From: Trichococcus alkaliphilus
Lineage (GTDB): Bacteria; Bacillota; Bacilli; Lactobacillales; Aerococcaceae
Length of the DNA stretch: 33,637 bases
Direction: 5' to 3'
NCBI RefSeq assembly: GCF_003008695.1
Contig: NZ_PXZT01000023.1
Location: forward strand, 1-33,637
Shown here: positions 6,512 through 28,689 of the stretch, one piece after another
How the letters are laid out: the number at the start of each line of letters is the position of its first letter
Position numbering within the stretch: position 1 is the first letter of the stretch
Notes under the pieces: generated by a model
Seen by the model: the letters and a program-made list of their open reading frames with translations, nothing else
What the model was told of the DNA's origin: nothing
The model's database searches: none
Made by a program: the position numbers and the translations under genes

Positions 6512-8325
6512 TGGGCGGCAACGGGTTCAAAGGCGGCCGCGGAGGTTTCCTGACGGACGAGGAAAAACAGAATAGCCCTAAAATCACATCACAGTTGCTG
6601 AAGCGGATGTTCAGTTATCTCATCCCTTATTGGAAGCAGCTCATCGTTTCCGTGTTGGCGATCATCACCTCATCGGTATTCGGCGTGTTTCCGACGATCT
6701 TGACCGGACGCATCATCGACGAAGGCCTGCTGCAGCAGGACATGCCTGTGCTGATTCGTCTGATCGGCCTCTCGTTCGGGGTGTTGATCATCGCCAATCT
6801 GATCAGTGTCGTGGAGAGTTATGTCAATGTCTGGATGGCGGAAAACATCACCTATGATATGCGCAATAAGATGTATAGCCATCTGCAGCGGATGTCGCAC
6901 CGGTTCTTCACGACCAGCAAGCAGGGCGACATCATCACCCGCATGACCAGCGATATCGGCGGCGTGCAGAGTGTGCTGACGGGTACTTGGACGAGCATCC
7001 TGCAGAATTTTGCGACGTTGACGGTTGCGCTTGTCACGATGTACACGAAAAGCCCTTTGCTTGCGACAATCGGAATCGTGGTCGTGCCGTTGTTCATCCT
7101 GCCGACGAAGCGTGTCGGCAAAAGGCGTTGGGAAATCACTTTGGCTTCGCGGAAGCACAATGACGACATCAACCAAATCTTGAATGAAACCCTCAGTGTC
7201 AGCGGGCAATTGCTTTCGAAGCTTTTCGTGACGGAAAACTACGAGTTCGACCGCTATCAGGAAGCCAACAAGCAGATGATCCGCTTGAACATCAAGGAAA
7301 GTATGGCGGGCAAATGGTTCCGGGTCGTGATCAACGTCTTCACGAACATCGGCCCGATGTTGATCTATCTGGTCGGCGGAATTCTCATCATCGAATACGG
7401 CAATACGGATCTGACGATCGGAGACATCACCGTGATGGTGGCGCTCCTGGGCAGGATGTATGGGCCGGTCAATTCCTTGCTGAATATCCAGGTCGATATG
7501 ATCCGTTCGATGGCGCTTTTCGACCGCATTTTCGAGTATTTCGATCTGCCTGTGGAAATCGACAATGATCCGGAGGCGATCAAGCCAGAGTCGTTTACAG
7601 GCGAGTTGGTTTTTGAAGAGGTTTCCTTCCATTATGATTCGGAACAGCCGATTTTGAATAACGTCAGCTTCGAACTGAAGCCGGGATCGTCCGTTGCCAT
7701 CGTCGGGCCTTCGGGAGCGGGCAAGTCCACCATCATCAACCTGATTCCGCGCCTCTATGATGTGACGGGCGGAAGGATCCTGTTGGACGGCGTCGACATC
7801 CGCAAACTCGATCTGGCCTATCTCCGCCAACACATCGGAGTGGTGACGCAGGACACGTACTTGTTCAACGGCACAATCAAAGAGAATCTGCTGTATGCCA
7901 AAGCCGACGCCACGCAGGCCGAAATCGAGAAAGCTTGCAGTGAAGCCAATATCCACGAGTTCATCAGCGGCTTGCCGAAAGGCTACGACACCATCGTGGG
8001 CAATCGCGGCATGAAGCTTTCCGGCGGCGAAAAGCAGCGGCTTTCAATCGCACGGATCATCCTCCGGAAACCGGGGCTGATCATCTTCGACGAAGCGACT
8101 TCCTCCTTGGACTCCATATCGGAGCATGCCATCCAGGAAGCGATAGCGCCGATCCTCGCCAAAAGTACGAGCCTGATCATTGCGCACCGTCTTTCGACAA
8201 TCCTGTCGGCTGATGAAATCTTGGTGCTGGAGAAAGGCAAAATCATTGAACGAGGGAACCATGAAATACTCGTCAAAAAAGGCGGCATCTACACGACGCT
8301 GTACGAAACGCAGATGAGAGTATGA
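6511..8325 (+). CDS. ABC transporter, fused permease/ATPase (multidrug-type half exporter)
   Basis: This 604-residue half-transporter is expected to work as a homodimer or with a partner. A Gly-rich N-terminal tail leads into a six-helix type I exporter membrane domain (about residues 35-325). The nucleotide-binding domain carries Walker A GPSGAGKS (399-406), the signature LSGGEKQR, Walker B LIIFDEATSSLD and the H-loop IAHRLST. There is only one half-transporter gene, so a homodimer is likely. The start overlaps the marR stop (TAATG). Linked to a MarR repressor and without a binding-protein gene, it is best called an exporter of drugs, peptides or lipids; the substrate cannot be read from sequence. 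A long terminator follows. Confidence 0.93.
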   Translation: MGGNGFKGGRGGFLTDEEKQNSPKITSQLLKRMFSYLIPYWKQLIVSVLAIITSSVFGVFPTILTGRIIDEGLLQQDMPVLIRLIGLSFGVLIIANLISVVESYVNVWMAENITYDMRNKMYSHLQRMSHRFFTTSKQGDIITRMTSDIGGVQSVLTGTWTSILQNFATLTVALVTMYTKSPLLATIGIVVVPLFILPTKRVGKRRWEITLASRKHNDDINQILNETLSVSGQLLSKLFVTENYEFDRYQEANKQMIRLNIKESMAGKWFRVVINVFTNIGPMLIYLVGGILIIEYGNTDLTIGDITVMVALLGRMYGPVNSLLNIQVDMIRSMALFDRIFEYFDLPVEIDNDPEAIKPESFTGELVFEEVSFHYDSEQPILNNVSFELKPGSSVAIVGPSGAGKSTIINLIPRLYDVTGGRILLDGVDIRKLDLAYLRQHIGVVTQDTYLFNGTIKENLLYAKADATQAEIEKACSEANIHEFISGLPKGYDTIVGNRGMKLSGGEKQRLSIARIILRKPGLIIFDEATSSLDSISEHAIQEAIAPILAKSTSLIIAHRLSTILSADEILVLEKGKIIERGNHEILVKKGGIYTTLYETQMRV

Positions 8326-20372: not shown

Positions 20373-21263
20373 TTAAAGTAATCCTTCTGATATCAATTGA
20401 TTCAAGCCATGATAGACACCTTCGTCATCATTGGAAGGCGTTGTGTAGTTTGCCACGCCCTTGGCTTTCGGCAACGCGTTAGCCATTGCGAAGGAATAGG
20501 GTCTGTCGGAAAGCATGGAGATGTCATTTTCGCTATCACCAAAAACCGCCACTTCTTCATTGGAAATACCAAGTTTTTCCAGTAAGGTATCCAAGGCTTT
20601 GCCTTTGTTGATGCCTTTTTTGGTGATTTCAAGTTTCCGTTCATCAGAAAAGACCAGCTCGTACTCGTCATGCAGCCCTAAATGAGGCAACGACTGCGTC
20701 ACGGCCTCCATGAAATGCGGGTCTTGGCTGATCGAAATTTTGTTGCAAGAAGCTGGCGCTTCGTTCAGATCAAGAATCAGTTTTTGTTCAGGATAGCCGT
20801 CGCGCATATCGCATAACCAACTGTACATGCCGCTGGCCCAAGGATAATCGTCGGGCAGTCTCATTTCGCCGCGGATCTTCTTCTTTAAGGCATACAGTGA
20901 ATCCGGCAAATAGGTGTACAGGCCGGCATCCTGGGAGAATTGGATCTCAACATTGAATGTGCGGAAGACGGATGTGACTCTTTGGATGTCTTCTGAATCC
21001 ATTATCCCCAATCTTTCCCTGGTTTGAGAATGGAAATCATAAATGGAACTGCCGTTTACATCGATCAAATAACCTTGATGGGAATCCATCTTCAGTTTTA
21101 GGGCATCCGGCATCAAACGCAAGTAACTTCTCCCGCTGGCCAATACCAGCGTGATGCCTTTTTGCTGGAGTGATAAGAGGAGTTCCTGGGTTTTGGAGCT
21201 GATGGCGTGGTCAGCAGTCAATAAGGTGCCATCCATGTCGCAAACGATCGCTTTAATGGGCAT
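20373..21263 (-). CDS. Cof-type HAD-superfamily phosphatase (PTS operon associated)
   Basis: This 296-residue class IIB HAD hydrolase is predicted to remove phosphate from sugar phosphates or related metabolites. It has motif I CDMDGTLL (nucleophile Asp and acid/base Asp), motif II as VLASGRS, Lys in KKGINKGKAL, and motif IV VFGDSENDISML. The cap domain lies between about residues 85 and 190. Its start codon overlaps the stop of the upstream rpiR gene by one base (TAATG), so it is translationally coupled to the regulator of the divergent PTS operon. That linkage suggests it acts on a phosphorylated intermediate of the pathway, or relieves sugar-phosphate stress; this is inference. Confidence 0.9.
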   Translation of the reverse strand: MPIKAIVCDMDGTLLTADHAISSKTQELLLSLQQKGITLVLASGRSYLRLMPDALKLKMDSHQGYLIDVNGSSIYDFHSQTRERLGIMDSEDIQRVTSVFRTFNVEIQFSQDAGLYTYLPDSLYALKKKIRGEMRLPDDYPWASGMYSWLCDMRDGYPEQKLILDLNEAPASCNKISISQDPHFMEAVTQSLPHLGLHDEYELVFSDERKLEITKKGINKGKALDTLLEKLGISNEEVAVFGDSENDISMLSDRPYSFAMANALPKAKGVANYTTPSNDDEGVYHGLNQLISEGLL

Positions 21264-22138
21264 TATCTATCCACCTCTATTTTTGTTGTCGAAAGAATTT
21301 CGCGTATCGTGTCGATTGATTCTATATTTGTATGCTCATCATGATAGAGATACGATAAGTAGATGATGTCCACTACTGTGATATAAAGTAATCTGGCTGA
21401 AAGTGCCTCGGACTGGAAAATGGATTCTTCTGTTTCGACTACGATACTGACATCACTCAATCGGTTCAAGGCGCCTGGCGGATTCCCTGTCAGACAGATG
21501 ATCTTGGCTTTATTATGGGCAGCTACCTCAGCTATCTTGATTGTTTCTGCCGTCTTTCCTGAGTGAGAGAAAAGGAAGACGCAATCATTTTCCGTTAATT
21601 TGGAAGTGTGCATCAGCTGCATATGATAATCCGAAACATAGTTTACGGGGATGGCGGTTCTCAAGAACTTGTGGTAGGCATCGAGCGCAATGACTGCGGA
21701 GGAACCAAGCCCAAAAAAGTGAAGCGCTTTCGAATTTACGATAATATCAAGAGCTTGTTGCAGTGCTTCCCCTGATAGTTTACTCATCAAGCTTTGCAAC
21801 ATAATTTGTGAGGATTGAATGACTTTTTTAGAAATATCGCTCGGCGTGTCCGAAGCGGTAATATCGGTAAATACGGCTAACTGGTGTGTGCGTTCTTCAG
21901 ACATACGATAGTTTGATGCGACACTGATTTTGAAATCCTGGAAGCCTTTGAAGCCTATTCTTTTCACGAATTTAAAAATCGTCGATTCTGAAAAATCTGT
22001 TTCTTCTGCAAGATTGGATAATGTTTTGTTCACTAGGTCCATGCCCAAGCTCACGAAATAGTCGGCAATTTTTAATTCAGTGGCTGAAAAAGTTTCGTAG
22101 TGTGGTTTCAGGATCATTTGGATATAATTTTTTGACAT
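21263..22138 (-). CDS. RpiR/MurR family regulator of the Man-PTS/dehydrogenase operon
   Basis: This 291-residue regulator has an N-terminal RpiR-type helix-turn-helix, with TLSNLAEETDFSESTIFKFVKRIGFKGFQDFK (about residues 39-70). A SIS domain follows (about 120-260) with FFGLGSSAVIALDAYHKFLR and FLFSHSGKTAETIKIAEVA, the usual phospho-sugar contact region. It is divergent from a PTS operon and coupled to a HAD phosphatase gene. The shared intergenic region carries two inverted operator copies that cover both promoters. The start is ATG with AAGGAGG nine bases upstream. It probably controls both the operon and itself in response to a phosphorylated substrate. Confidence 0.9.
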   Translation of the reverse strand: MSKNYIQMILKPHYETFSATELKIADYFVSLGMDLVNKTLSNLAEETDFSESTIFKFVKRIGFKGFQDFKISVASNYRMSEERTHQLAVFTDITASDTPSDISKKVIQSSQIMLQSLMSKLSGEALQQALDIIVNSKALHFFGLGSSAVIALDAYHKFLRTAIPVNYVSDYHMQLMHTSKLTENDCVFLFSHSGKTAETIKIAEVAAHNKAKIICLTGNPPGALNRLSDVSIVVETEESIFQSEALSARLLYITVVDIIYLSYLYHDEHTNIESIDTIREILSTTKIEVDR

Positions 22139-22160
22139 ATATGAGCACCTCCTTGGGAAT

Positions 22161-22189
22161 AGTATAGCATATTCGCGATTAGTAATAAA
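22161..22189 (-). promoter_or_regulatory. Promoter of the rpiR-HAD unit (leftward)
   Basis: On the minus strand a -35 TTTATT (22184-22189), a 17-base spacer ending in TGC and a -10 TATACT (22161-22166) form an extended -10 promoter. The left operator arm covers its -35 box. Confidence 0.65.
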
Positions 22190-22230
22190 TATTTTTTATT
22201 TTAGCTTTACAAAGTAAAAAATATTTATTA
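22183..22230. promoter_or_regulatory. Paired operator, perfect 16-bp inverted repeat
   Basis: TAATAAATATTTTTTA (22183-22198) and TAAAAAATATTTATTA (22215-22230) are exact reverse complements, with centres 32 bases apart. Each arm itself contains the AAATATTT palindrome, so each can be one dimer site. The left arm covers the -35 box of the regulator promoter. The right arm covers the spacer and edge of the -10 box of the PTS promoter. Confidence 0.8.
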
Positions 22231-22234
22231 TAAT
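22206..22234 (+). promoter_or_regulatory. Promoter of the dehydrogenase/Man-PTS operon
   Basis: TTTACA (22206-22211), a 17-base spacer and TATAAT (22229-22234). The leader would be about 70 bases. Confidence 0.82.
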
Positions 22235-22248
22235 CAGAATATAAATTA

Positions 22249-22262
22249 CGAAAACGATTACA
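22249..22262. promoter_or_regulatory. CcpA cre site
   Basis: CGAAAACGATTACA matches the TGWNANCGNTNWCA consensus at all but the first base. It lies just downstream of the expected transcription start, a position from which CcpA blocks elongation, so glucose repression of the operon is expected. Confidence 0.75.
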
Positions 22263-22312
22263 AAAAAGAATGTGGCCGACATAAAGTTGTACAAGTGGAG
22301 GGGTAAAGCGAA

Positions 22313-23317
22313 ATGACTCAAGAAAACAAGATAGCCATCGTCAATTCAAGCAGTTTTGGGAAAATGTTCGACACACATGTGGAAAGACTGGAAAAAATCG
22401 GACAGGTCGATCGTTTCGATTTTGACAGTTCAATTGAAGGAAAGCAACTAGCTGAATCATTAATAGGGTATAATATTATTATCGCGAGTGTGACACCATT
22501 TTTCACTAGCGAGTTTTTTGAGCATAAGGATGAACTGAAGTTGATCACGCGTCATGGAATCGGGTACAACAATATAGACCTGGAAGCTGCCAAGGCACAT
22601 GGTACGATTGTCGCGATTGTTCCACCTCTGATTGAGCGCGACGCAGTTGCAGAAAATAATGTTACAAATTTACTTGCATTGATGCGGCGCACAACTGAGT
22701 CGGCCCAGGAAGTCAAAAATGATGGCTGGGAAAATCGAGCGCGGTTTATTGGAAACGGTTTATGCGGAAAAACGGTAGGCGTCATAGGTGTTGGCAATAT
22801 CGGTAGCCGAGCCGTCGAAATCCTGCATTATGGGTTCAGGTGTGAAGTGTTGGGGGTCGATCCGAACAAGACCGCGTTGGAAATTGAGATTTTCGGCGGC
22901 AAGAAAGTCGAATTGGATGAACTTCTGGAGCGGGCCGAGGTCATTTGCCTCTGTGCAAGCCTGAATGAAACGAACTACCATCTGATTTCCAAAGAAGCCT
23001 TTGCGAAAATGAAGGACGGTGTCTACATATCCAACTCAGCTCGTGGGGCACTGGTGGATGAAGCGGCAATCATTGGAGCGATCCAAACCGGGAAACTGCG
23101 CGGGTATGCAACAGATGTGCTGGAAGTTGAACCAGGACGCAGTGACCATCCTTTCCTGGCATATCCGAATATCATTTTGACCCCGCACACATCCGCGTAC
23201 ACAATGGAGTGCCTGGAAGGAATGGGAGACAAATGTGTTTCTGACTGTGAAGCGATAGTGGAAGGGAGGATGCCTCGACGGGTGGTGCAACCAGTAAGTC
23301 CGTATATTACAGCATGA
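22313..23317 (+). CDS. D-isomer-specific 2-hydroxyacid dehydrogenase
   Basis: This 334-residue NAD-dependent enzyme is of the D-2-hydroxyacid dehydrogenase (SerA/LdhA-like) family. The Rossmann motif GVGNIG (residues 159-164) is followed by Asp183, which favours NAD over NADP. The catalytic set Arg244 (NSARGALVDE), Glu273 (EVEP) and His292 (LTPHTSAYT) is complete. The N-terminal part ITRHGIGYNNIDL is typical. The enzyme interconverts a 2-oxo acid and a D-2-hydroxy acid; the exact substrate is not predictable, and a phosphorylated sugar acid is possible given the PTS context. It is first gene of the operon, with GGAGGGG before the ATG. It does not look like biosynthetic SerA, since there is no ACT domain. 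Confidence 0.9.
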   Translation: MTQENKIAIVNSSSFGKMFDTHVERLEKIGQVDRFDFDSSIEGKQLAESLIGYNIIIASVTPFFTSEFFEHKDELKLITRHGIGYNNIDLEAAKAHGTIVAIVPPLIERDAVAENNVTNLLALMRRTTESAQEVKNDGWENRARFIGNGLCGKTVGVIGVGNIGSRAVEILHYGFRCEVLGVDPNKTALEIEIFGGKKVELDELLERAEVICLCASLNETNYHLISKEAFAKMKDGVYISNSARGALVDEAAIIGAIQTGKLRGYATDVLEVEPGRSDHPFLAYPNIILTPHTSAYTMECLEGMGDKCVSDCEAIVEGRMPRRVVQPVSPYITA

Positions 23318-23332
23318 GGGAGGTGGATAAAG

Positions 23333-24436
23333 GTGGATACAGTTGTAAATGTAAAAGTTGGCCCGCAATTCTATAAGTATGGGCAAGGCGCTATGGAAAT
23401 GATCCCGGAGATAGTGAATGAATACGGTGCGAAACGCGTGCTGCTTGTTCATGGCACGATTTCATGGGAGAAAGCAAGGCCGTATTTGGAATTTCTGGAT
23501 GAGGACTTCACAATCCAGTACGAGAAATACAACGGTGAGTGCAGCTATAATGAAGCGAATCGCTTGGCCAAACTAGTCGACGATGGCAACTTCGACTTTA
23601 TCATCGGCGTCGGCGGAGGGAAATTGTGTGATCTGGTGTACTACGTCGCTTCCTTGACGAAAAAACCTTTCGGTGTCGTTCCGACGCTGGCCAGTAATTG
23701 TGCACCCTGGGCTCCCTTATCTGTAATGTACAAAGATAACGGACTTGCTGAAGGCAAAACCGAGCATTACAAAAGACAGGCAGCCTTTCTGATCACTGAT
23801 CCAACGTTAGTCGTCGATGCGCCAATACAATTCTTTATCGCAGGAATCGCGGATACTATAGCTAAGTGGTATGAATCCGATATGATATTGGAACAGCCGC
23901 AGTTTGAAGCGAATAATTTCTTGATGCTCGCACGGCATTCGGCGCGGATCTGCAAAGACGTCATCGCTGAAGATGGTTTGAAGGCTATCGAGGATATGCG
24001 CAATGGAACGGTATCTCCTGAGTTTATCAAGGTGTCTGAAGTAATATTCGGGGTTGCGGGACTGGTTGGGGGATTTGGCGACAAATATGCCCGTAATACT
24101 GCCGCTCATGCCATTCATGATGCGATTTCAGCGTATCTGCCGGGAGTCCACAACTACTTGCATGGTGAAAAAGTGGCATATGGCATTTTCTATCAATTGG
24201 CACTGGAAGACAAATGGCAAGTGATTGACGAGTTGATTCCGATGTATGAGGCTTTAAGTTTACCGAAATCATTAACCGAAATGGGCGAGTATCCTTTGGC
24301 GGAAGAGGAACTCAACAACATAGTCGAACTGGTCAACAAAAAGCAAAAAGTGCATTTGTTGCCGATGATGATCAATGAAGAAGTCTTAAAAAAAGCAATA
24401 ATAGATTTAGAAAAATACATAAATACGGAGGTATAG
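23333..24436 (+). CDS. HcxA-like hydroxycarboxylate dehydrogenase (GldA-type metal-dependent ADH family)
   Basis: This 367-residue enzyme is of the glycerol-dehydrogenase-like iron/zinc ADH family. Segments GVGGGKLCD (nucleotide binding), SNCAPWAPLSVMYKDNG, GIADTIAKWYES, GLVGGFGDKYARNTAAHAIHD and YLHGEKVAYGI follow the pattern I recall for E. coli YbdH/HcxA more closely than that of true glycerol dehydrogenase. The expected metal ligands are Asp174, His259 (or His262) and His277. HcxA reduces 2-oxo acids, so a second 2-hydroxyacid chemistry beside the upstream dehydrogenase is plausible. The start is GTG at 23333 with GGGAGGTGG eight bases upstream. It is three bases from the PTS IIC gene, so cotranscribed. 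The substrate is not known. Confidence 0.85.
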   Translation: MDTVVNVKVGPQFYKYGQGAMEMIPEIVNEYGAKRVLLVHGTISWEKARPYLEFLDEDFTIQYEKYNGECSYNEANRLAKLVDDGNFDFIIGVGGGKLCDLVYYVASLTKKPFGVVPTLASNCAPWAPLSVMYKDNGLAEGKTEHYKRQAAFLITDPTLVVDAPIQFFIAGIADTIAKWYESDMILEQPQFEANNFLMLARHSARICKDVIAEDGLKAIEDMRNGTVSPEFIKVSEVIFGVAGLVGGFGDKYARNTAAHAIHDAISAYLPGVHNYLHGEKVAYGIFYQLALEDKWQVIDELIPMYEALSLPKSLTEMGEYPLAEEELNNIVELVNKKQKVHLLPMMINEEVLKKAIIDLEKYINTEV

Positions 24437-24439
24437 GCA

Positions 24440-25264
24440 ATGGAAAATATTACCGCAATGCAAAGTTTGTTAATTGCACTATGGGTAGGGGCAGTCATGT
24501 CACGTGCATTTTTAGGTGGAGCAACATTAACGTTACGTTTTTCCCCTTTGATGACGGGTTTGATCGCAGGTATTGTAATGGGTGACGTTCCACAAGCAAT
24601 GATTATCACAGCAGCAATTCAGTTGATTTACATGGGGGTTTTCTCTCCAGGGGGAACGATGCCTTCTGAACCATCAATCGCAGCAGCGATCGCGGTGCCG
24701 GTTGCTTTAATGGGTAACCTGCAGCCTGAAGCAGCGATAGCTGTAGCTGTACCGGTAGGTTTATTGGGTGCTTATCTGTACCAATTCAGATTTTTCATCA
24801 ATACATTTTTGGGTAAATACACCGATAAAGCCGTCGAAGACTTGAATGACGGTGCAATCGTAAGATCGATCATCCTTTACCCAACAATCGCTTCTTTCCT
24901 TTTGTTTGTGCCATTAGTATTCGTTGCTTTGTACTTTGGAGCACCCGTTATTGCTGATGTCATCACCGCACTTGAAGGTACGGTTGTGTTCCATATTCTT
25001 ACTGTTGTCGGTGGCGGTCTAGCGGCTATCGGTATTGCAACAACGATTTATGTTATCGGCCGTAAAGACTACATGGTTTTCTTCCTGTTAGCATACTTGA
25101 TGAGCGTTGTGCTGGCTTCCTTATCAATCACGATGGTAACTTATGCCATTGTCGGAGCTTTAATAGCAGCAATTTTCGTGTTAAGCAAGGGACAAGCTGC
25201 AAAAACATCTTCTGCTTCCGCTGGTAGTGCAGCGCTTGAAGATGACGATGATGACGATTTCTAA
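24440..25264 (+). CDS. PTS mannose/fructose/sorbose family subunit IIC
   Basis: This 274-residue membrane permease subunit of the mannose-family PTS forms the sugar channel together with IID. Family features are SRAFLGGATLTLRFSPLMTG near the N terminus, the conserved QLIYMGVFSPGGTMPSEP segment, and several further hydrophobic helices. Sequence alone does not give the substrate. The C terminus carries an unusual acidic tail of six Asp ending in Phe (EDDDDDDF), echoed in the IIA subunit of the same operon. It starts three bases after the HcxA-like gene with GGAGG upstream, so translation is probably coupled. Confidence 0.94.
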   Translation: MENITAMQSLLIALWVGAVMSRAFLGGATLTLRFSPLMTGLIAGIVMGDVPQAMIITAAIQLIYMGVFSPGGTMPSEPSIAAAIAVPVALMGNLQPEAAIAVAVPVGLLGAYLYQFRFFINTFLGKYTDKAVEDLNDGAIVRSIILYPTIASFLLFVPLVFVALYFGAPVIADVITALEGTVVFHILTVVGGGLAAIGIATTIYVIGRKDYMVFFLLAYLMSVVLASLSITMVTYAIVGALIAAIFVLSKGQAAKTSSASAGSAALEDDDDDDF

Positions 25265-25294
25265 AAAGTATGCAAATTGAAAGGAAGATGAAAA

Positions 25295-26164
25295 ATGATA
25301 AACGCTAATCTAGATGCTAAAGAAAAAAACATGTTAGCACCAGAAGAAATAAATGCTAAAGATGTTACGAAAACCTATTTACGCTGGCACTTTGCAAATG
25401 AAATCCCTCACTCATTCGAACGTTATTTGGCTCCATCGCTCCTTTATGCGATGATGCCAATTCTGCGCAAACTGTACAAAGATGAGGATCAATTAAGAGC
25501 TGCCTACAAACGCCAATTGCTGTTCTTCAACACGCAACTGTCATGGGGTGGCGGAGTCATCACAGGGCTGATGTCTTCGATGGAACAAGAACGCGCCAAA
25601 GAGGTTGTGAACGGCGATGAAGTTACCATGACTGATGATCTGATGTACAATACTAAAGCAGGTTTAATGGGCGCTTTGGCAGGTATCGGTGATTCGATCG
25701 ACTCAGGGACTGTACAATATATTTTTATCGCTATCGCTGTTCCTTGGGCACAAATGGGTAGCCCAATCGGCGCCTTGTTCCCATTCATCGCTTTTGCTCT
25801 TTACCAAGCATTGTTAGGTGTATTCTTCGCACGAAGCGCATTCAAGACAGGTAAAAATGCAACGGGTGTTATGCATAGTGCTGGAATTCAGACTGTTATC
25901 GAAATGTTGTCGATCCTAGGGATGTTTATGATGGGGATTTTAGCCGGAAATTATGTTAAAGTTTCATCAAGCTTAGAATTTGAGATTTCAGGACGTCCGT
26001 TTATTATTCAGGAAATTCTGGATAAGATCATGCCTGGTATGTTGCCGCTGGCTGTTGTTCTGGGTGTATACTTCTTCTACATCAAAAAAGGTCTGAAGGT
26101 AACGCGTGCATTGGTGGGCTTGACGTTGATTTTGATTGTTCTGGCTGGCATAGGTATTCTATAA
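25295..26164 (+). CDS. PTS mannose/fructose/sorbose family subunit IID
   Basis: This 289-residue membrane subunit partners IIC. It has the family markers FERYLAPSLLYAMMPILRKLY, FNTQLSWGGGVITGLMSSMEQ and GLMGALAGIGDSIDSGTVQ. Hydrophobic segments at the C terminus complete the membrane part. AAAGGAAG precedes the ATG. It lies 30 bases after IIC and 29 before IIB, in one transcript. Confidence 0.94.
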   Translation: MINANLDAKEKNMLAPEEINAKDVTKTYLRWHFANEIPHSFERYLAPSLLYAMMPILRKLYKDEDQLRAAYKRQLLFFNTQLSWGGGVITGLMSSMEQERAKEVVNGDEVTMTDDLMYNTKAGLMGALAGIGDSIDSGTVQYIFIAIAVPWAQMGSPIGALFPFIAFALYQALLGVFFARSAFKTGKNATGVMHSAGIQTVIEMLSILGMFMMGILAGNYVKVSSSLEFEISGRPFIIQEILDKIMPGMLPLAVVLGVYFFYIKKGLKVTRALVGLTLILIVLAGIGIL

Positions 26165-26193
26165 AACGGTCATAAGAAAGGAAAGTGTAAAAA

Positions 26194-26697
26194 ATGGGAG
26201 TTGTAAATTTAGCGCGTGTAGATGAGAGGCTGATCCATGGTCAAGTCATGTTGACATTGTCCCAAAGAGATGGGGTCAATTCAATCTTTGTAGTTGATGA
26301 TGTAGTTGCTAAAGATAAATTCATGAAAGATTTATATAAGAGTGCGGGTAGCCGTACCGGGCAAAAAACAATTGTCATGACTGAAGAAAAGTGCAAATTC
26401 TATTGGGATGAGTTCAAATTTAAAGAGTACAGCGCTATCCTGATCACGAAAACAGTGACCGGAATTTATAATCTGGTTAAACATGGTGTTCCGATCAAGG
26501 ATCTGAATATCGGCGGAATCGCTAAAAAAGGCGATGATGATATTTTGGTCACTAAATCAGTTTATCTGAACAAAGCAGATGCATTGAAATTGAAAGAATT
26601 AAATGAAGACTATGGTGTTGAAAACATCTATTTCCAAGCAACACCATCTTCGTCAAGCTCTAGCTTAGCGGATGTATTAAAGCAATTCGGTTTATAA
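26194..26697 (+). CDS. PTS mannose/fructose/sorbose family subunit IIB
   Basis: This 167-residue cytosolic phosphotransfer protein begins MGVVNLARVDERLIHGQV, where His15 is the phosphorylated residue of IIB(Man) proteins. The middle ITKTVTGIYNLVKHGVPIKDLNIGGIAKKG is also typical. It takes phosphate from the IIA encoded further downstream and passes it to the incoming sugar. A Ser-rich patch (TPSSSSSS) lies near the end. The gene is followed by an intercistronic hairpin. Confidence 0.94.
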   Translation: MGVVNLARVDERLIHGQVMLTLSQRDGVNSIFVVDDVVAKDKFMKDLYKSAGSRTGQKTIVMTEEKCKFYWDEFKFKEYSAILITKTVTGIYNLVKHGVPIKDLNIGGIAKKGDDDILVTKSVYLNKADALKLKELNEDYGVENIYFQATPSSSSSSLADVLKQFGL

Positions 26698-26710
26698 AAT
26701 AATTCCTGGT

Positions 26711-26745
26711 GAGAAAGCAGTTATTGCGAAATAGCTGCTTTTCTC
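26711..26745 (+). other. Intercistronic hairpin between IIB and the membrane protein
   Basis: GAGAAAGCAGTTAT (26711-26724) pairs with ATAGCTGCTTTTCTC (26731-26745), with one bulge and one wobble and a six-base loop; the right arm ends in TTTTCTC. It is probably a partial terminator or mRNA-stabilising element that sets downstream expression lower than that of IIC, IID and IIB. Confidence 0.6.
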
Positions 26746-26786
26746 AATCGGGAAAATAGTGACCAAAATGACAGGTGGCAAATACT

Positions 26787-27668
26787 ATGCAGCAAAATGA
26801 AAAATTTAAAGATTGGCTATTTCGATATCAGTCTTTTTATCGTGTACGCCGTACTGATAAAAGCAAACGGCGGTTTATCTCAGCGTTAGTGGCGGATATT
26901 TCTGACATGCGAGAAGATGTGCAGGTGATCGAGTACAATCGCCATAAAAAATATGCATCAAGGAACGTTTACGTTGGCGATATCGGAAAAGCGGATCAGA
27001 TCATTTGCACGTATTATGACACGCCAATCCAGCATTTTGGTCCTTATGTTTTATTTGATCGAGAAGTACAGGAAAAACGGACAACCAGTTTCATTATAGT
27101 CAGTTCTGTCCTGTTGCTCCTGGTGGGTATTGCCGGAACGCTCTTTTATATGCAGAACGCATCCGGTGCAGTTGACCTGATTTCTGTTCGCACCTTGTTT
27201 ATCGCTCTTGCTTACGGTGTCTATTTCTATTTGTTCGGCAAGATTGCGAAGGGGTCGGCAAACCGAAAGACGTTGATTCGAAATACTTCGTCCGTCCTTG
27301 CTATGTTGGCGATGATAAGTGATGCAAAAGGAGAGAAAACAGCTTTCGCTTTTGTGGATGAAGGCAGTTTTGGGGAAAGTGGTCTGGAAGCAATGCGTAC
27401 GTCCCAAAATAAGAAAGCGAAAATTTTCTTTTTGGATTGCGTAGGCGCAGATGCTCCGCTGCATGTTATCGGGAATGATGTTTCTGAGGCTAAGTTGGCG
27501 GAATTGGGTATTGATCATCAGTCGTCAGACGAAAAGATCACTTATATCTTCAGTGCAAAAACTTCGGAAAAAGAGCAAAAGACGCAATTCTATCTGGATA
27601 AGTCGGATTTGGGCCGAAAGAATTTAAGTATGGAAAATATTACAAAAGTTGTGGAATTGTGCAGATAG
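26787..27668 (+). CDS. Membrane protein of unknown function in the PTS operon, faintly M28-peptidase-like
   Basis: I do not recognise this 293-residue protein as a named family. A charged N-terminal region (1-98) leads to two membrane helices (about 100-122 and 134-152) and a soluble C-terminal domain (about 155-293). Three motifs resemble an M28 aminopeptidase: CTYYDTP (74-80), like the HYDT metal motif; RNTSSVLAMLAMI (165-177), like the NxSGVAALLE helix; and FVDEGSFGESGL (189-200) with IFFLDCVG (213-220). The first His is replaced by Tyr and several ligands look lost, so it would be a non-catalytic or altered member with a membrane hairpin inserted. This resemblance is by eye only. The ATG at 26787 follows AGGTGG by 8 bases; a GTG at 26775 is less likely. 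Placed between IIB and IIA, it may regulate or localise the transporter. Confidence 0.7.
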   Translation: MQQNEKFKDWLFRYQSFYRVRRTDKSKRRFISALVADISDMREDVQVIEYNRHKKYASRNVYVGDIGKADQIICTYYDTPIQHFGPYVLFDREVQEKRTTSFIIVSSVLLLLVGIAGTLFYMQNASGAVDLISVRTLFIALAYGVYFYLFGKIAKGSANRKTLIRNTSSVLAMLAMISDAKGEKTAFAFVDEGSFGESGLEAMRTSQNKKAKIFFLDCVGADAPLHVIGNDVSEAKLAELGIDHQSSDEKITYIFSAKTSEKEQKTQFYLDKSDLGRKNLSMENITKVVELCR

Positions 27669-27704
27669 AAAATGGGCCTTTTCTGTAACGAAGGAGGATT
27701 ATCA

Positions 27705-28154
27705 ATGTTAGGGATTGTTATTGCAACACATGGTTCGTTAAGCAACGGACTGAAAGATTCAGCGGAAGTGATCTTTGGCCCGACCAATAATATCACAACA
27801 GCAAACTTGAATCTGGGAGACGACGTGCAGGCATTAGGCGCAACAATTAAAGAATCTATCCTTGAAGTTAACCAAGGTGACGGGGTCATCGTATTGGTGG
27901 ATCTGGTGAGCGCTAGCCCGTACAACCAATCGGTACTTGTGACGAATAGTCTGGAGAAACCGCTGCAGGATTCTGTTTACATCATTGGCGGGGTAAACCT
28001 TCCGATGTTGTTGGAAGGGATCAACCATCAATTGATCGGGACGCCGGTTGAAGAAGCTGCCGAAGCTGTGATCGCTCAAGGGAAGAACAGCATCAGTGAT
28101 TGGCATGTATCCATGATTGCTGACGAAGACGATGATGAGGACGACGCTTTTTAA
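27705..28154 (+). CDS. PTS mannose/fructose/sorbose family subunit IIA
   Basis: This 149-residue IIA(Man)-type phosphocarrier begins [16 protein letters not shown], where His9 is phosphorylated by HPr. [14 protein letters not shown] and [12 protein letters not shown] are family segments. It hands phosphate to IIB of the same operon. The ATG at 27705 has a perfect AAGGAGG eight bases upstream; the longer reading from 27672 does not. The C terminus ends in an acidic tail ([10 protein letters not shown]) very like the end of IIC. It is last in the operon, before a strong terminator. Confidence 0.93.
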
Positions 28155-28167
28155 GAAAAATAAAATG

Positions 28168-28217
28168 AACCCTATAGAATGGACACTAAAAAGTGCCCTC
28201 TATAGGGTTCGTTTTTG
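28168..28217 (+). terminator. Terminator of the Man-PTS operon
   Basis: GAACCCTATAGA (28168-28179) pairs with TCTATAGGGTTC (28199-28210). The inner CACT/AGTG stem extends it around AAAA, followed by GTTTTTG. Confidence 0.9.
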
Positions 28218-28236
28218 TATACTTTTAAGTGGAATC

Positions 28237-28276
28237 TAAAAACCTGCCCCCTGTATATTACCAGGGAGCAGGTTTT
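28237..28276. terminator. Bidirectional terminator between PTS operon and mscL
   Basis: AAAAACCTGCCCCCTG pairs with CAGGGAGCAGGTTTT around TATATTAC, with one mismatch. On the minus strand it ends in TTTTTAG and terminates mscL. Confidence 0.9.
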
Positions 28277-28284
28277 GTTGAGCA

Positions 28285-28689
28285 CTATTCGACTTTTTTG
28301 CTTTGATTCACCATCAAATCACGGATCTCTTTCAGGTAAAGTTCAACAACTGGTACTTCGGCTTCAACTTCCACTGGTTCTTCAGCAGGCATTCTGCTTT
28401 TAAGTTTGTTGATTACTTTGATCATCAGGAAGAGGACAAGTGCGATCAACAGGAAGTTCATTAAGGCTTGCAGGAAATTACCATAAGTGAAGTCTGCCTG
28501 TCCGATTTTGAAGGAAAGGCCGGTCAAGTCAGCGTTGCCGGTCAAGGCTACGATGATCGGAGTGATGATATCTTTTACTAATGAATTGACAATTGCTGTA
28601 AATGCACCCCCAATGACAACCCCGACTGCAAGATCAAGCACGTTCCCACGCATGATGAATAATTTAAATTCTTTCCACATATATTTCAC
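28285..28689 (-). CDS. mscL: Large-conductance mechanosensitive channel
   Basis: This 134-residue channel opens under membrane tension to release solutes during hypo-osmotic shock. The N terminus MWKEFKLFIMRGNVLDLAVGVVIGGAFTAIV, followed by NSLVKDIITP, is the conserved amphipathic helix and pore-lining TM1. TM2 lies around FLQALMNFLLIALVLFLMIKV. A cytoplasmic bundle ends in MVNQSKKVE; the stretch before it is Glu/Val-rich. The start has GGAGGTG upstream. The gene stands alone with its own terminator. Confidence 0.97.
   Translation of the reverse strand: MKYMWKEFKLFIMRGNVLDLAVGVVIGGAFTAIVNSLVKDIITPIIVALTGNADLTGLSFKIGQADFTYGNFLQALMNFLLIALVLFLMIKVINKLKSRMPAEEPVEVEAEVPVVELYLKEIRDLMVNQSKKVE

Follow-up and report, generated by a model that had tools for sequence, protein, structure and literature searches.

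Two dehydrogenases in a mannose-family phosphotransferase operon of Trichococcus alkaliphilus: a predicted link between 6-phosphogluconate and 6-phosphomannonate in an apparently cut-down gluconate-type operon

Introduction

What might a sugar transport operon do with two different dehydrogenases and no aldolase? The question is raised by a locus of Trichococcus alkaliphilus, carried on a 33,637-nucleotide stretch of DNA that we call the window (positions 1 to 33,637 of contig NZ_PXZT01000023.1, assembly GCF_003008695.1; the genome measures 2.96 Mb, and we number this contig C15). Its operon codes for a D-2-hydroxyacid dehydrogenase (2HADH), a metal-dependent, iron-type dehydrogenase (FeADH) and the IIC, IID, IIB and IIA components of a mannose-family phosphotransferase system (Man-PTS), next to a divergent RpiR-family regulator and a HAD phosphatase. 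A preliminary description, made from the sequence alone, proposed that a sugar acid is imported as a phosphate and converted by redox chemistry at its 2-hydroxy/2-oxo position, possibly as an oxidation-reduction inversion, with the HAD enzyme removing the phosphate, and it did not recognise the enzyme set. The genes that it named were all confirmed as open reading frames; a further gene between those of IIB and IIA had been missed.

Comparison with related loci leads us to view the operon as a probable cut-down Trichococcus form of the Enterococcus faecalis operon EF3142-EF3134. With a probability of about 0.5, we propose that a C6 aldonate is imported as its 6-phosphate and interconverted at C2 through 2-keto-6-phosphogluconate. 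We first present what was computed here, namely which genes the loci contain, the clades and conserved residues of their products, and the lack of any Edd over its cut-off.

Results and discussion

Related loci carry the enzymes missing from the window

Related loci were gathered by a scan with an IID alignment, and the best 80 of 133 stretches, a sample leaning to Enterococcus, were named. Related PTS loci were present in these best 80 stretches, which is not a matter of chance, and the locus is a recurrent one in Bacillota. Named relatives include T. flocculiformis (L041), T. palustris (L042), T. pasteurii (L080) and T. collinsii (L117). Labels were given to 81 loci, one of them the window. 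Leaving out the 17 cut by contig ends gave 64 complete loci, among which L094 and L101 have identical sequences and were both counted. Gene labels follow BLASTP identity thresholds of our own choice, and Gnd homologues below 45% identity (such as those of L053 and L119) are uncounted.

Among the complete loci, 2HADH is encoded in 59, a 297-residue protein in 58, FeADH in 47, a UxuA-like dehydratase in 46, the 2-keto-3-deoxy-6-phosphogluconate (KDPG) aldolase Eda in 44 and an NAD-type Gnd in 28. The dehydratase and the aldolase occur together in 44 of the 64 loci. The commonest make-up is 2HADH, FeADH, uxuA and eda (25 loci), and the same set plus gnd is found in 11; both dehydrogenases are present in 36 of the 46 complete loci with uxuA. 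The window operon codes for no UxuA-like dehydratase, KDPG aldolase or NAD-type Gnd. The earlier statement that there is no aldolase or classical sugar-catabolic enzyme therefore holds for the window and fails for its relatives. Genes gnd and uxuA are both missing in 7 of the 64 loci, namely the window, its close kin L080, L115, L117 and L118, and two distant loci.

In T. flocculiformis, uxuA and eda sit directly after the IIA gene, ahead of a gene that we take to be mscL. The corresponding 130 bases of the window (28154-28285) showed no match to uxuA or eda and hold a terminator-like hairpin, which is suggestive of the end of a shortened operon. As relatives have uxuA, eda and gnd, the missing aldolase would be a local loss, and the gene content of the relatives together with the T. 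flocculiformis arrangement suggests that the odd enzyme set of the window is what is left of a longer pathway.

The four PTS components of the window are encoded in one operon and belong to the clade of the E. faecalis-type, predicted gluconate Man-PTS. Operon EF3142-EF3134 has been predicted to code for a PTS for gluconate, which would be broken down 'via the mannonate route' (PMC2766626). The enzyme set of the window would thus be a reduced form of a system for which a prediction exists. The preliminary description had stated that a neighbourhood already assigned to a known substrate would speak against it, and the gluconate prediction goes part of the way towards such an assignment (PMC2766626).

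The relatives also bear on the proposed removal of phosphate after the redox conversion. The HAD gene overlaps rpiR by one base, which bears out the claimed linkage of phosphatase and regulator and could be read in favour of such a dephosphorylation. Nevertheless, Gnd and KDPG aldolase, as encoded by the relatives, depend on phosphorylated intermediates, which makes it unlikely that the HAD enzyme strips off the phosphate. Furthermore, the Cof-type HAD adjoins rpiR in Trichococcus (T. palustris excepted), Marinilactibacillus and L. nasuensis, and the other named loci have a beta-phosphoglucomutase-like HAD or none that was recognised. We regard dephosphorylation as very improbable; the HAD enzyme is probably a side-product or overflow phosphatase.

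One 2HADH clade in two genetic contexts

The 2HADH has both domains of its family and the Arg-Glu-His triad. The intact R244, E273 and H292 of the preliminary description were found in the window, in all 66 PTS-linked enzymes aligned (window included) and in 18 lactobacillar relatives. These 84 proteins, from PTS operons and lactobacillar hexuronate clusters, form one clade. Residues S12, R80, H81, E108 and C300 are found in 84/84 members and in none of five 2HADHs outside the clade; N11 and Y296 are likewise invariant in the clade and occur in one of the five.

The lactobacillar members came from a profile survey of 397 genomes of one family, taken to be Lactobacillaceae, in which 41 had a match at E <= 1e-100; 18 neighbourhoods were taken, whose 2HADHs are 54-61% identical to that of the window. 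Next to 2HADH, these 18 stretches encode a UxuB-like protein (16 stretches), a gluconokinase-like FGGY kinase (15), UxaC (8), Gnd (8) and UxaE (4), the kinase, UxuB-like and UxaE labels being derived from Pfam and NCBIfam matches of ten of the proteins. The UxuB-like proteins score far under the cut-off for fructuronate reductase. In two of the stretches, L268 and L274, a PTS is found alongside, and the UxuB-like and kinase genes are both absent. On a Leuconostoc citreum plasmid, 2HADH is accompanied by an FGGY kinase, KDPG aldolase and gnd. The 2HADH clade is thus found beside mannonate and gluconate enzymes in two contexts, which supports the earlier idea of a sugar acid that is imported as a phosphate and undergoes redox conversion between its 2-hydroxy and 2-oxo forms.

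In extracts of a lactobacillus, L. suebicus, 2-epimerisation between 6-phosphomannonate and 6-phosphogluconate was measured in 2020, with no gene proven for it (PMC6978723). Since the lactobacillar 2HADH clusters hold other genes of the L. suebicus pathway, 2HADH is a natural second candidate for the epimerase. We propose that it may be a 6-phosphogluconate 2-dehydrogenase, or a component of a 6-phosphomannonate 2-epimerase.

The same enzyme could belong to a plain 2-ketogluconate operon. The PTS would then deliver 2-keto-6-phosphogluconate, which a KguD-like 2HADH would reduce to 6-phosphogluconate for Gnd or the pentose-phosphate pathway; FeADH would reduce a further keto acid, no epimerisation would take place, and the lactobacillar 2HADH would likewise serve to reduce 2-ketogluconate before gluconokinase and Gnd act. 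Consistent with this, 6 of the 64 complete loci, including the identical and interrupted L094 and L101, have only gnd and 2HADH with the PTS, 'probable 2-ketogluconate reductase' is the name given to the relative of 2HADH that ranks second among those with a solved structure, and E. faecalis ferments 2-ketogluconate according to a title cited in PMC7701990. Such an operon would leave unexplained the UxuA-like enzyme of 46 of the 64 loci as well as the UxaC and UxuB-like genes beside the lactobacillar 2HADH, and the window enzyme falls well short of the score required by the GhrB equivalog model (148.6 versus 492 bits). We consider this alternative doubtful, albeit with a real minority chance.

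The FeADH is HcxA-like in a broad sense and rarely occurs without 2HADH

All 56 FeADH operon members keep the metal-site residues D174, H259 and H277. They also share the pair N122-C123, where four aligned glycerol dehydrogenase structures have Thr-Asp. In the glycerol dehydrogenase GldA, the Asp of this TDAP motif has a role towards the substrate. Glycerol, a first guess as a substrate, was therefore rejected on the change from Asp to Cys; the score against the glycerol dehydrogenase model NF006941 is 221 bits, under the cut-off of 336. The E. coli hydroxycarboxylate dehydrogenase A (HcxA), which acts on 2-oxo acids, has the same metal-site residues and the same Cys in place of the GldA Asp, but is only 31% identical to the window enzyme, which scores 221.5 bits against NF007880 (presumably the HcxA/YbdH model), under the cut-off of 429. 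As the Cys is common to all ten non-operon FeADHs aligned, that is E. coli HcxA and nine others, it marks a broad group and is not specific for HcxA; the earlier label 'HcxA-like' is right in this broad sense.

The breadth of this group leaves some room for a different acid, such as a 5-keto, 2,5-diketo or another aldonate, with FeADH acting at another carbon, the substrates of both dehydrogenases being predicted ones. In the relatives, the enzymes Gnd, UxuA and KDPG aldolase all indicate C6 acids of the gluconate or mannonate type, which makes this option improbable.

FeADH is found without 2HADH in one of the 47 complete FeADH loci (p 0.015 in a Fisher test of gene co-occurrence over the 64 loci; relatedness among loci was left in), and 2HADH without FeADH in 13 of 59. 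FeADH thus seems to act next to 2HADH. In a survey of 395 genomes of the order, an operon-type score (at least 535 bits, the next best being 412) was reached in 49. Of the 47 neighbourhoods looked at, 43 adjoin this PTS. One of the other four, L210, has a gnd-2HADH-FeADH module next to a different Man-PTS (IIC 41%, IID 48% identity), and from this arrangement the enzyme module may be able to change transporter. The remaining three (L214 to L216) have the operon-type FeADH alone, with no PTS or 2HADH in the stretch seen, L215 being at a contig end. The genome of the window also codes for a second HcxA-like FeADH (C10:17000-18097; 6986-8107 on the minus strand of L163), which is 46% identical to the first, has the same SNCAPW motif and lies beside a gene that, by eye, we take to be luxS.

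A separate UxuA clade in genomes with no Edd over cut-off

The operon-type UxuA proteins form a clade of their own, distinct from 26 canonical UxuA sequences; it numbers 59 sequences, of which 55 come from operon loci. Residues S105, K107 and G111 are found in 59/59 members of the operon clade and 0/26 canonical proteins, and K36 in 59/59 and 1/26, respectively. The operon clade also has a partly inserted loop with a Gln-x-x-Gly-Phe core, of which Gln and Phe are present in 59/59 sequences and Gly in 58/59. The added lysines, a lost Asp and the inserted loop fit a phosphorylated substrate. The solved structure 1tz9, which we take to be a mannonate dehydratase of E. faecalis, has the residues of the operon clade.

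No Edd (TIGR01196) was found over cut-off in 41 relatives or in 30 operon genomes, 23 and 22 of which, respectively, have distant members of the ILVD/EDD family. Outside the operon, the genome of the window codes for a single UxuA, which belongs to the canonical clade (49% identity), and for KDPG aldolase homologues at 31-32%. This UxuA is encoded in a hexuronate-like cluster with UxaC (named by eye) and a KDPG aldolase homologue (C18:203000-222500, L164). About 3 kb beyond that cluster is a gene for an ILVD/EDD-family dehydratase scoring under the Edd cut-off (C18:215341-216834). The best Gnd match in the genome is a 483-residue frame on contig C11, at 33% identity.

A proposed C2 interconversion of 6-phosphoaldonates

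We infer all reactions, substrates and directions of the following model from sequence and gene neighbourhood. Import by a PTS yields a 6-phosphate, and the Man-PTS would take up a C6 aldonate or 2-keto-aldonate of the gluconate, 2-ketogluconate or mannonate type in this way. The 2HADH would interconvert 6-phosphogluconate and 2-keto-6-phosphogluconate. FeADH would act at the same C2 with the other stereochemistry, between 6-phosphomannonate and 2-keto-6-phosphogluconate, or might merely feed 2-keto-6-phosphogluconate into the scheme. Together, the two dehydrogenases, or 2HADH alone with bound NAD, would shuttle carbon between 6-phosphomannonate and 6-phosphogluconate. The UxuA-like dehydratase and KDPG aldolase of most relatives would then split the 6-phosphomannonate branch in an Entner-Doudoroff route without Edd, and/or the NAD-type Gnd would take the 6-phosphogluconate branch. 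With uxuA, eda and gnd lost from the operon, 6-phosphogluconate would probably exit in T. alkaliphilus through the chromosomal Gnd of contig C11.

A more ambitious form of this proposal, which we advance tentatively and rate below an even chance, is that these 2HADHs represent a new clade of 6-phosphogluconate/6-phosphomannonate 2-epimerases, working by C2 oxidation and re-reduction via 2-keto-6-phosphogluconate, alone or with an HcxA-like partner. With the operon-type UxuA as a 6-phosphomannonate dehydratase and KDPG aldolase, they would make up an Edd-less Entner-Doudoroff route, and they would supply the missing lactobacillar gene of the galacturonate-phosphoketolase pathway.

Several observations weigh against the interconversion model. 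FeADH is missing from 9 of the 46 complete loci with uxuA, and its association with uxuA is weak (p 0.06 over the 64 complete loci). Of ten genomes with uxuA but no operon FeADH, 7 have no FeADH homologue at E <= 1e-50, which led us to reject the notion that the enzyme is supplied in trans in all such cases. It is also absent from the 18 lactobacillar stretches seen, lower-scoring homologues being found elsewhere in two of these genomes (G579 and G759) in the order-wide survey. On these three grounds, we rejected a strict two-enzyme inversion as a general rule. The inversion suggested in the preliminary description remains attractive, as epimerisation has been measured in a lactobacillus (PMC6978723), but the need for both dehydrogenases is not borne out. 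The authors of that study named a candidate of their own from the proteome, an aldose-1-epimerase-like protein (PMC6978723). For E. faecalis, conversion of gluconate to KDPG has been proposed via EF0422-0426 and EF2263-2266 (PMC7701990). Lastly, no Trichococcus phenotype on gluconate was found in the literature listings searched.

The loci that have uxuA but neither dehydrogenase (L063, L069 and L070, plus the incomplete L062) also count against the model. All of them carry gnd, and they fit either a pair of distinct substrates or a UxuA that works on 6-phosphogluconate. The latter would make the operon-type UxuA itself a 6-phosphogluconate dehydratase, a replacement for Edd devoid of an iron-sulphur cluster, with the dehydrogenases only feeding side substrates into 6-phosphogluconate; these four loci would then be simple gluconate operons, and the lack of Edd over cut-off in all 30 operon genomes would be accounted for. 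UxuA-family enzymes are known for the (2S) stereochemistry of mannonate, however, and both dehydrogenases accompany most complete uxuA loci (36 of 46, as given above), so that we find this replacement of Edd unlikely.

How enterococci run the Entner-Doudoroff pathway without Edd has been described as a long-standing enigma, for which a different answer was offered (PMC7701990). In the parts of the literature on 6-phosphomannonate and Edd-less routes that were available, no role of 2HADH or FeADH in this step was found; a 2006 review cited for the prediction may hold one. The C2 interconversion proposed here would make the question, for enterococci and their relatives, testable with a few purified proteins, and 2HADH is a testable gene candidate for the orphan 6-phosphomannonate 2-epimerase activity. 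A redox-neutral bridge between uronate and aldonate pools and the pentose-phosphate pathway could also be useful for pectin fermentation.

Layout and putative control elements of the locus

Pfam places all genes of the operon over cut-off, except that of the 297-residue protein (Table 1). The rightward genes from position 22313 are separated by gaps of 3 to 77 bases, and a divergent rpiR gene precedes most of the related loci listed. Promoter, cre-like and terminator calls were weighed against the expectation by chance for the stretches scanned, and the cre pattern is the one that we presume to be in general use. As the promoter-like and cre-like sites are not more frequent than by chance, their position, and for the promoter also its score, is the main argument for them.

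Table 1. Genes and candidate control elements of the locus, in window coordinates
Feature	Coordinates	Strand	Evidence
Cof-type HAD-IIB phosphatase	20373..21263	-	PF08282 E 3.8e-54; TIGR00099 174.8 bits, cut-off 137
RpiR/MurR-family regulator (HTH_6 and SIS), divergent from operon	21263..22138	-	PF01418 and PF01380 over cut-off
Inverted repeat, candidate RpiR operator overlapping the promoter-like site	22183..22230		20-nucleotide arms, 95% complementary
Sigma-70-like promoter	22206..22234	+	11/12 consensus positions, 17-nucleotide spacer; 20 such sites, 17.7 expected
cre-like site between promoter and first gene	22249..22262	+	one mismatch; 2 in window, 4 expected by chance
D-2-hydroxyacid dehydrogenase (2HADH)	22313..23317	+	PF02826 E 8.2e-52
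HcxA-like metal-dependent (iron-type) dehydrogenase (FeADH)	23333..24436	+	PF00465 E 2.3e-24
Mannose-family PTS EIIC	24440..25264	+	PF03609 E 1.6e-53
Mannose-family PTS EIID	25295..26164	+	PF03613 E 4.5e-75
Mannose-family PTS EIIB	26194..26697	+	PF03830 E 4.9e-34
297-residue protein, M28-peptidase/glutaminyl-cyclase fold	26775..27668	+	no Pfam or NCBIfam model; predicted structure
Mannose-family PTS EIIA	27672..28154	+	PF03610 E 7.8e-23
Terminator-like hairpin with T run, directly after IIA	28195..28208	+	11 such sites in region, 7.7 expected

A 297-residue protein between IIB and IIA

The AlphaFold2 model of the 297-residue protein, based on a 66-row alignment, has a pLDDT of 90.3 and a pTM of 0.87. 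The best Foldseek match in the PDB is the S. griseus aminopeptidase (E 4.8e-7, TM-score about 0.5, root-mean-square deviation 8.3), and the fold is one shared with M28 aminopeptidases and glutaminyl cyclases. M28 peptidases have His and Glu residues as metal ligands and base. The 297-residue protein departs from these enzymes by a two-helix insertion, which, judged by eye from the sequence and helices, is probably membrane-spanning, and by the lack of any His or Glu column conserved at 90% or more in the 66 sequences, which makes zinc peptidase activity unlikely. Of 41 genomes searched, 12 code for it, one being that of the window; in the other 11 it always lies within this kind of PTS cluster. 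Based on its model and context, it is likely to be a pseudo-enzyme accessory of this PTS.

Plasmid-borne, apparently mislabelled and interrupted copies

An E. faecium plasmid (L007/L008, NZ_CP072711.1) harbours a copy of the operon that includes gnd, uxuA and a HAD gene, its membrane-protein gene being in two frames. A second plasmid (L009, CP131096.1) has short operon frames only, of uncertain sequence quality, and a predicted vanY gene. We considered whether the plasmid IID is the E. faecium colonisation gene ptsD and rejected this identity, the IID gene being 858 bp long and ptsD 822 bp at the locus of another record (PMC11008740). A search for the plasmid IID beyond E. faecium was unproductive.

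Locus L118 (MUZD01000016.1) is labelled Sedimentibacter sp. SX930, but its operon proteins are 92-100% identical to those of the window and it looks like Trichococcus. The identical stretches L094 and L101 (BQKD01000001.1, Erysipelotrichaceae OPF54) are 20,843 bases long, match base for base and lie about 71 kb apart on one contig; in both, the operon is broken by opposite-strand frames.

Comparison with known systems

The closest known system is EF3142-EF3134 of E. faecalis, which combines a Man-PTS of the same type as in the window with a mannonate dehydratase and eda (PMC2766626, PMC7701990). Its dehydratase and aldolase have been discussed in connection with the missing Edd, the phosphorylation step being left open (PMC7701990), and cre sites have been reported for it (PMC8262876), the window having a cre-like site. 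Compared with its published description, the window operon lacks gnd, uxuA and eda, keeps both dehydrogenases, and has an rpiR gene adjoined by one for a Cof-type HAD.

The L. suebicus pathway of mannonate kinase and 6-phosphomannonate 2-epimerase likewise joins the mannonate and 6-phosphogluconate pools as 6-phosphates; going by its published description, it does so with a kinase, where the window would use a PTS (PMC6978723).

Sugar-acid Man-PTS operons with a dedicated dehydratase and aldolase are exemplified by the glucosaminate operon dga. The window operon appears to share with dga a Man-PTS for sugar acids, whereas the dehydratase and aldolase families of dga are not among the ten window proteins scanned by Pfam.

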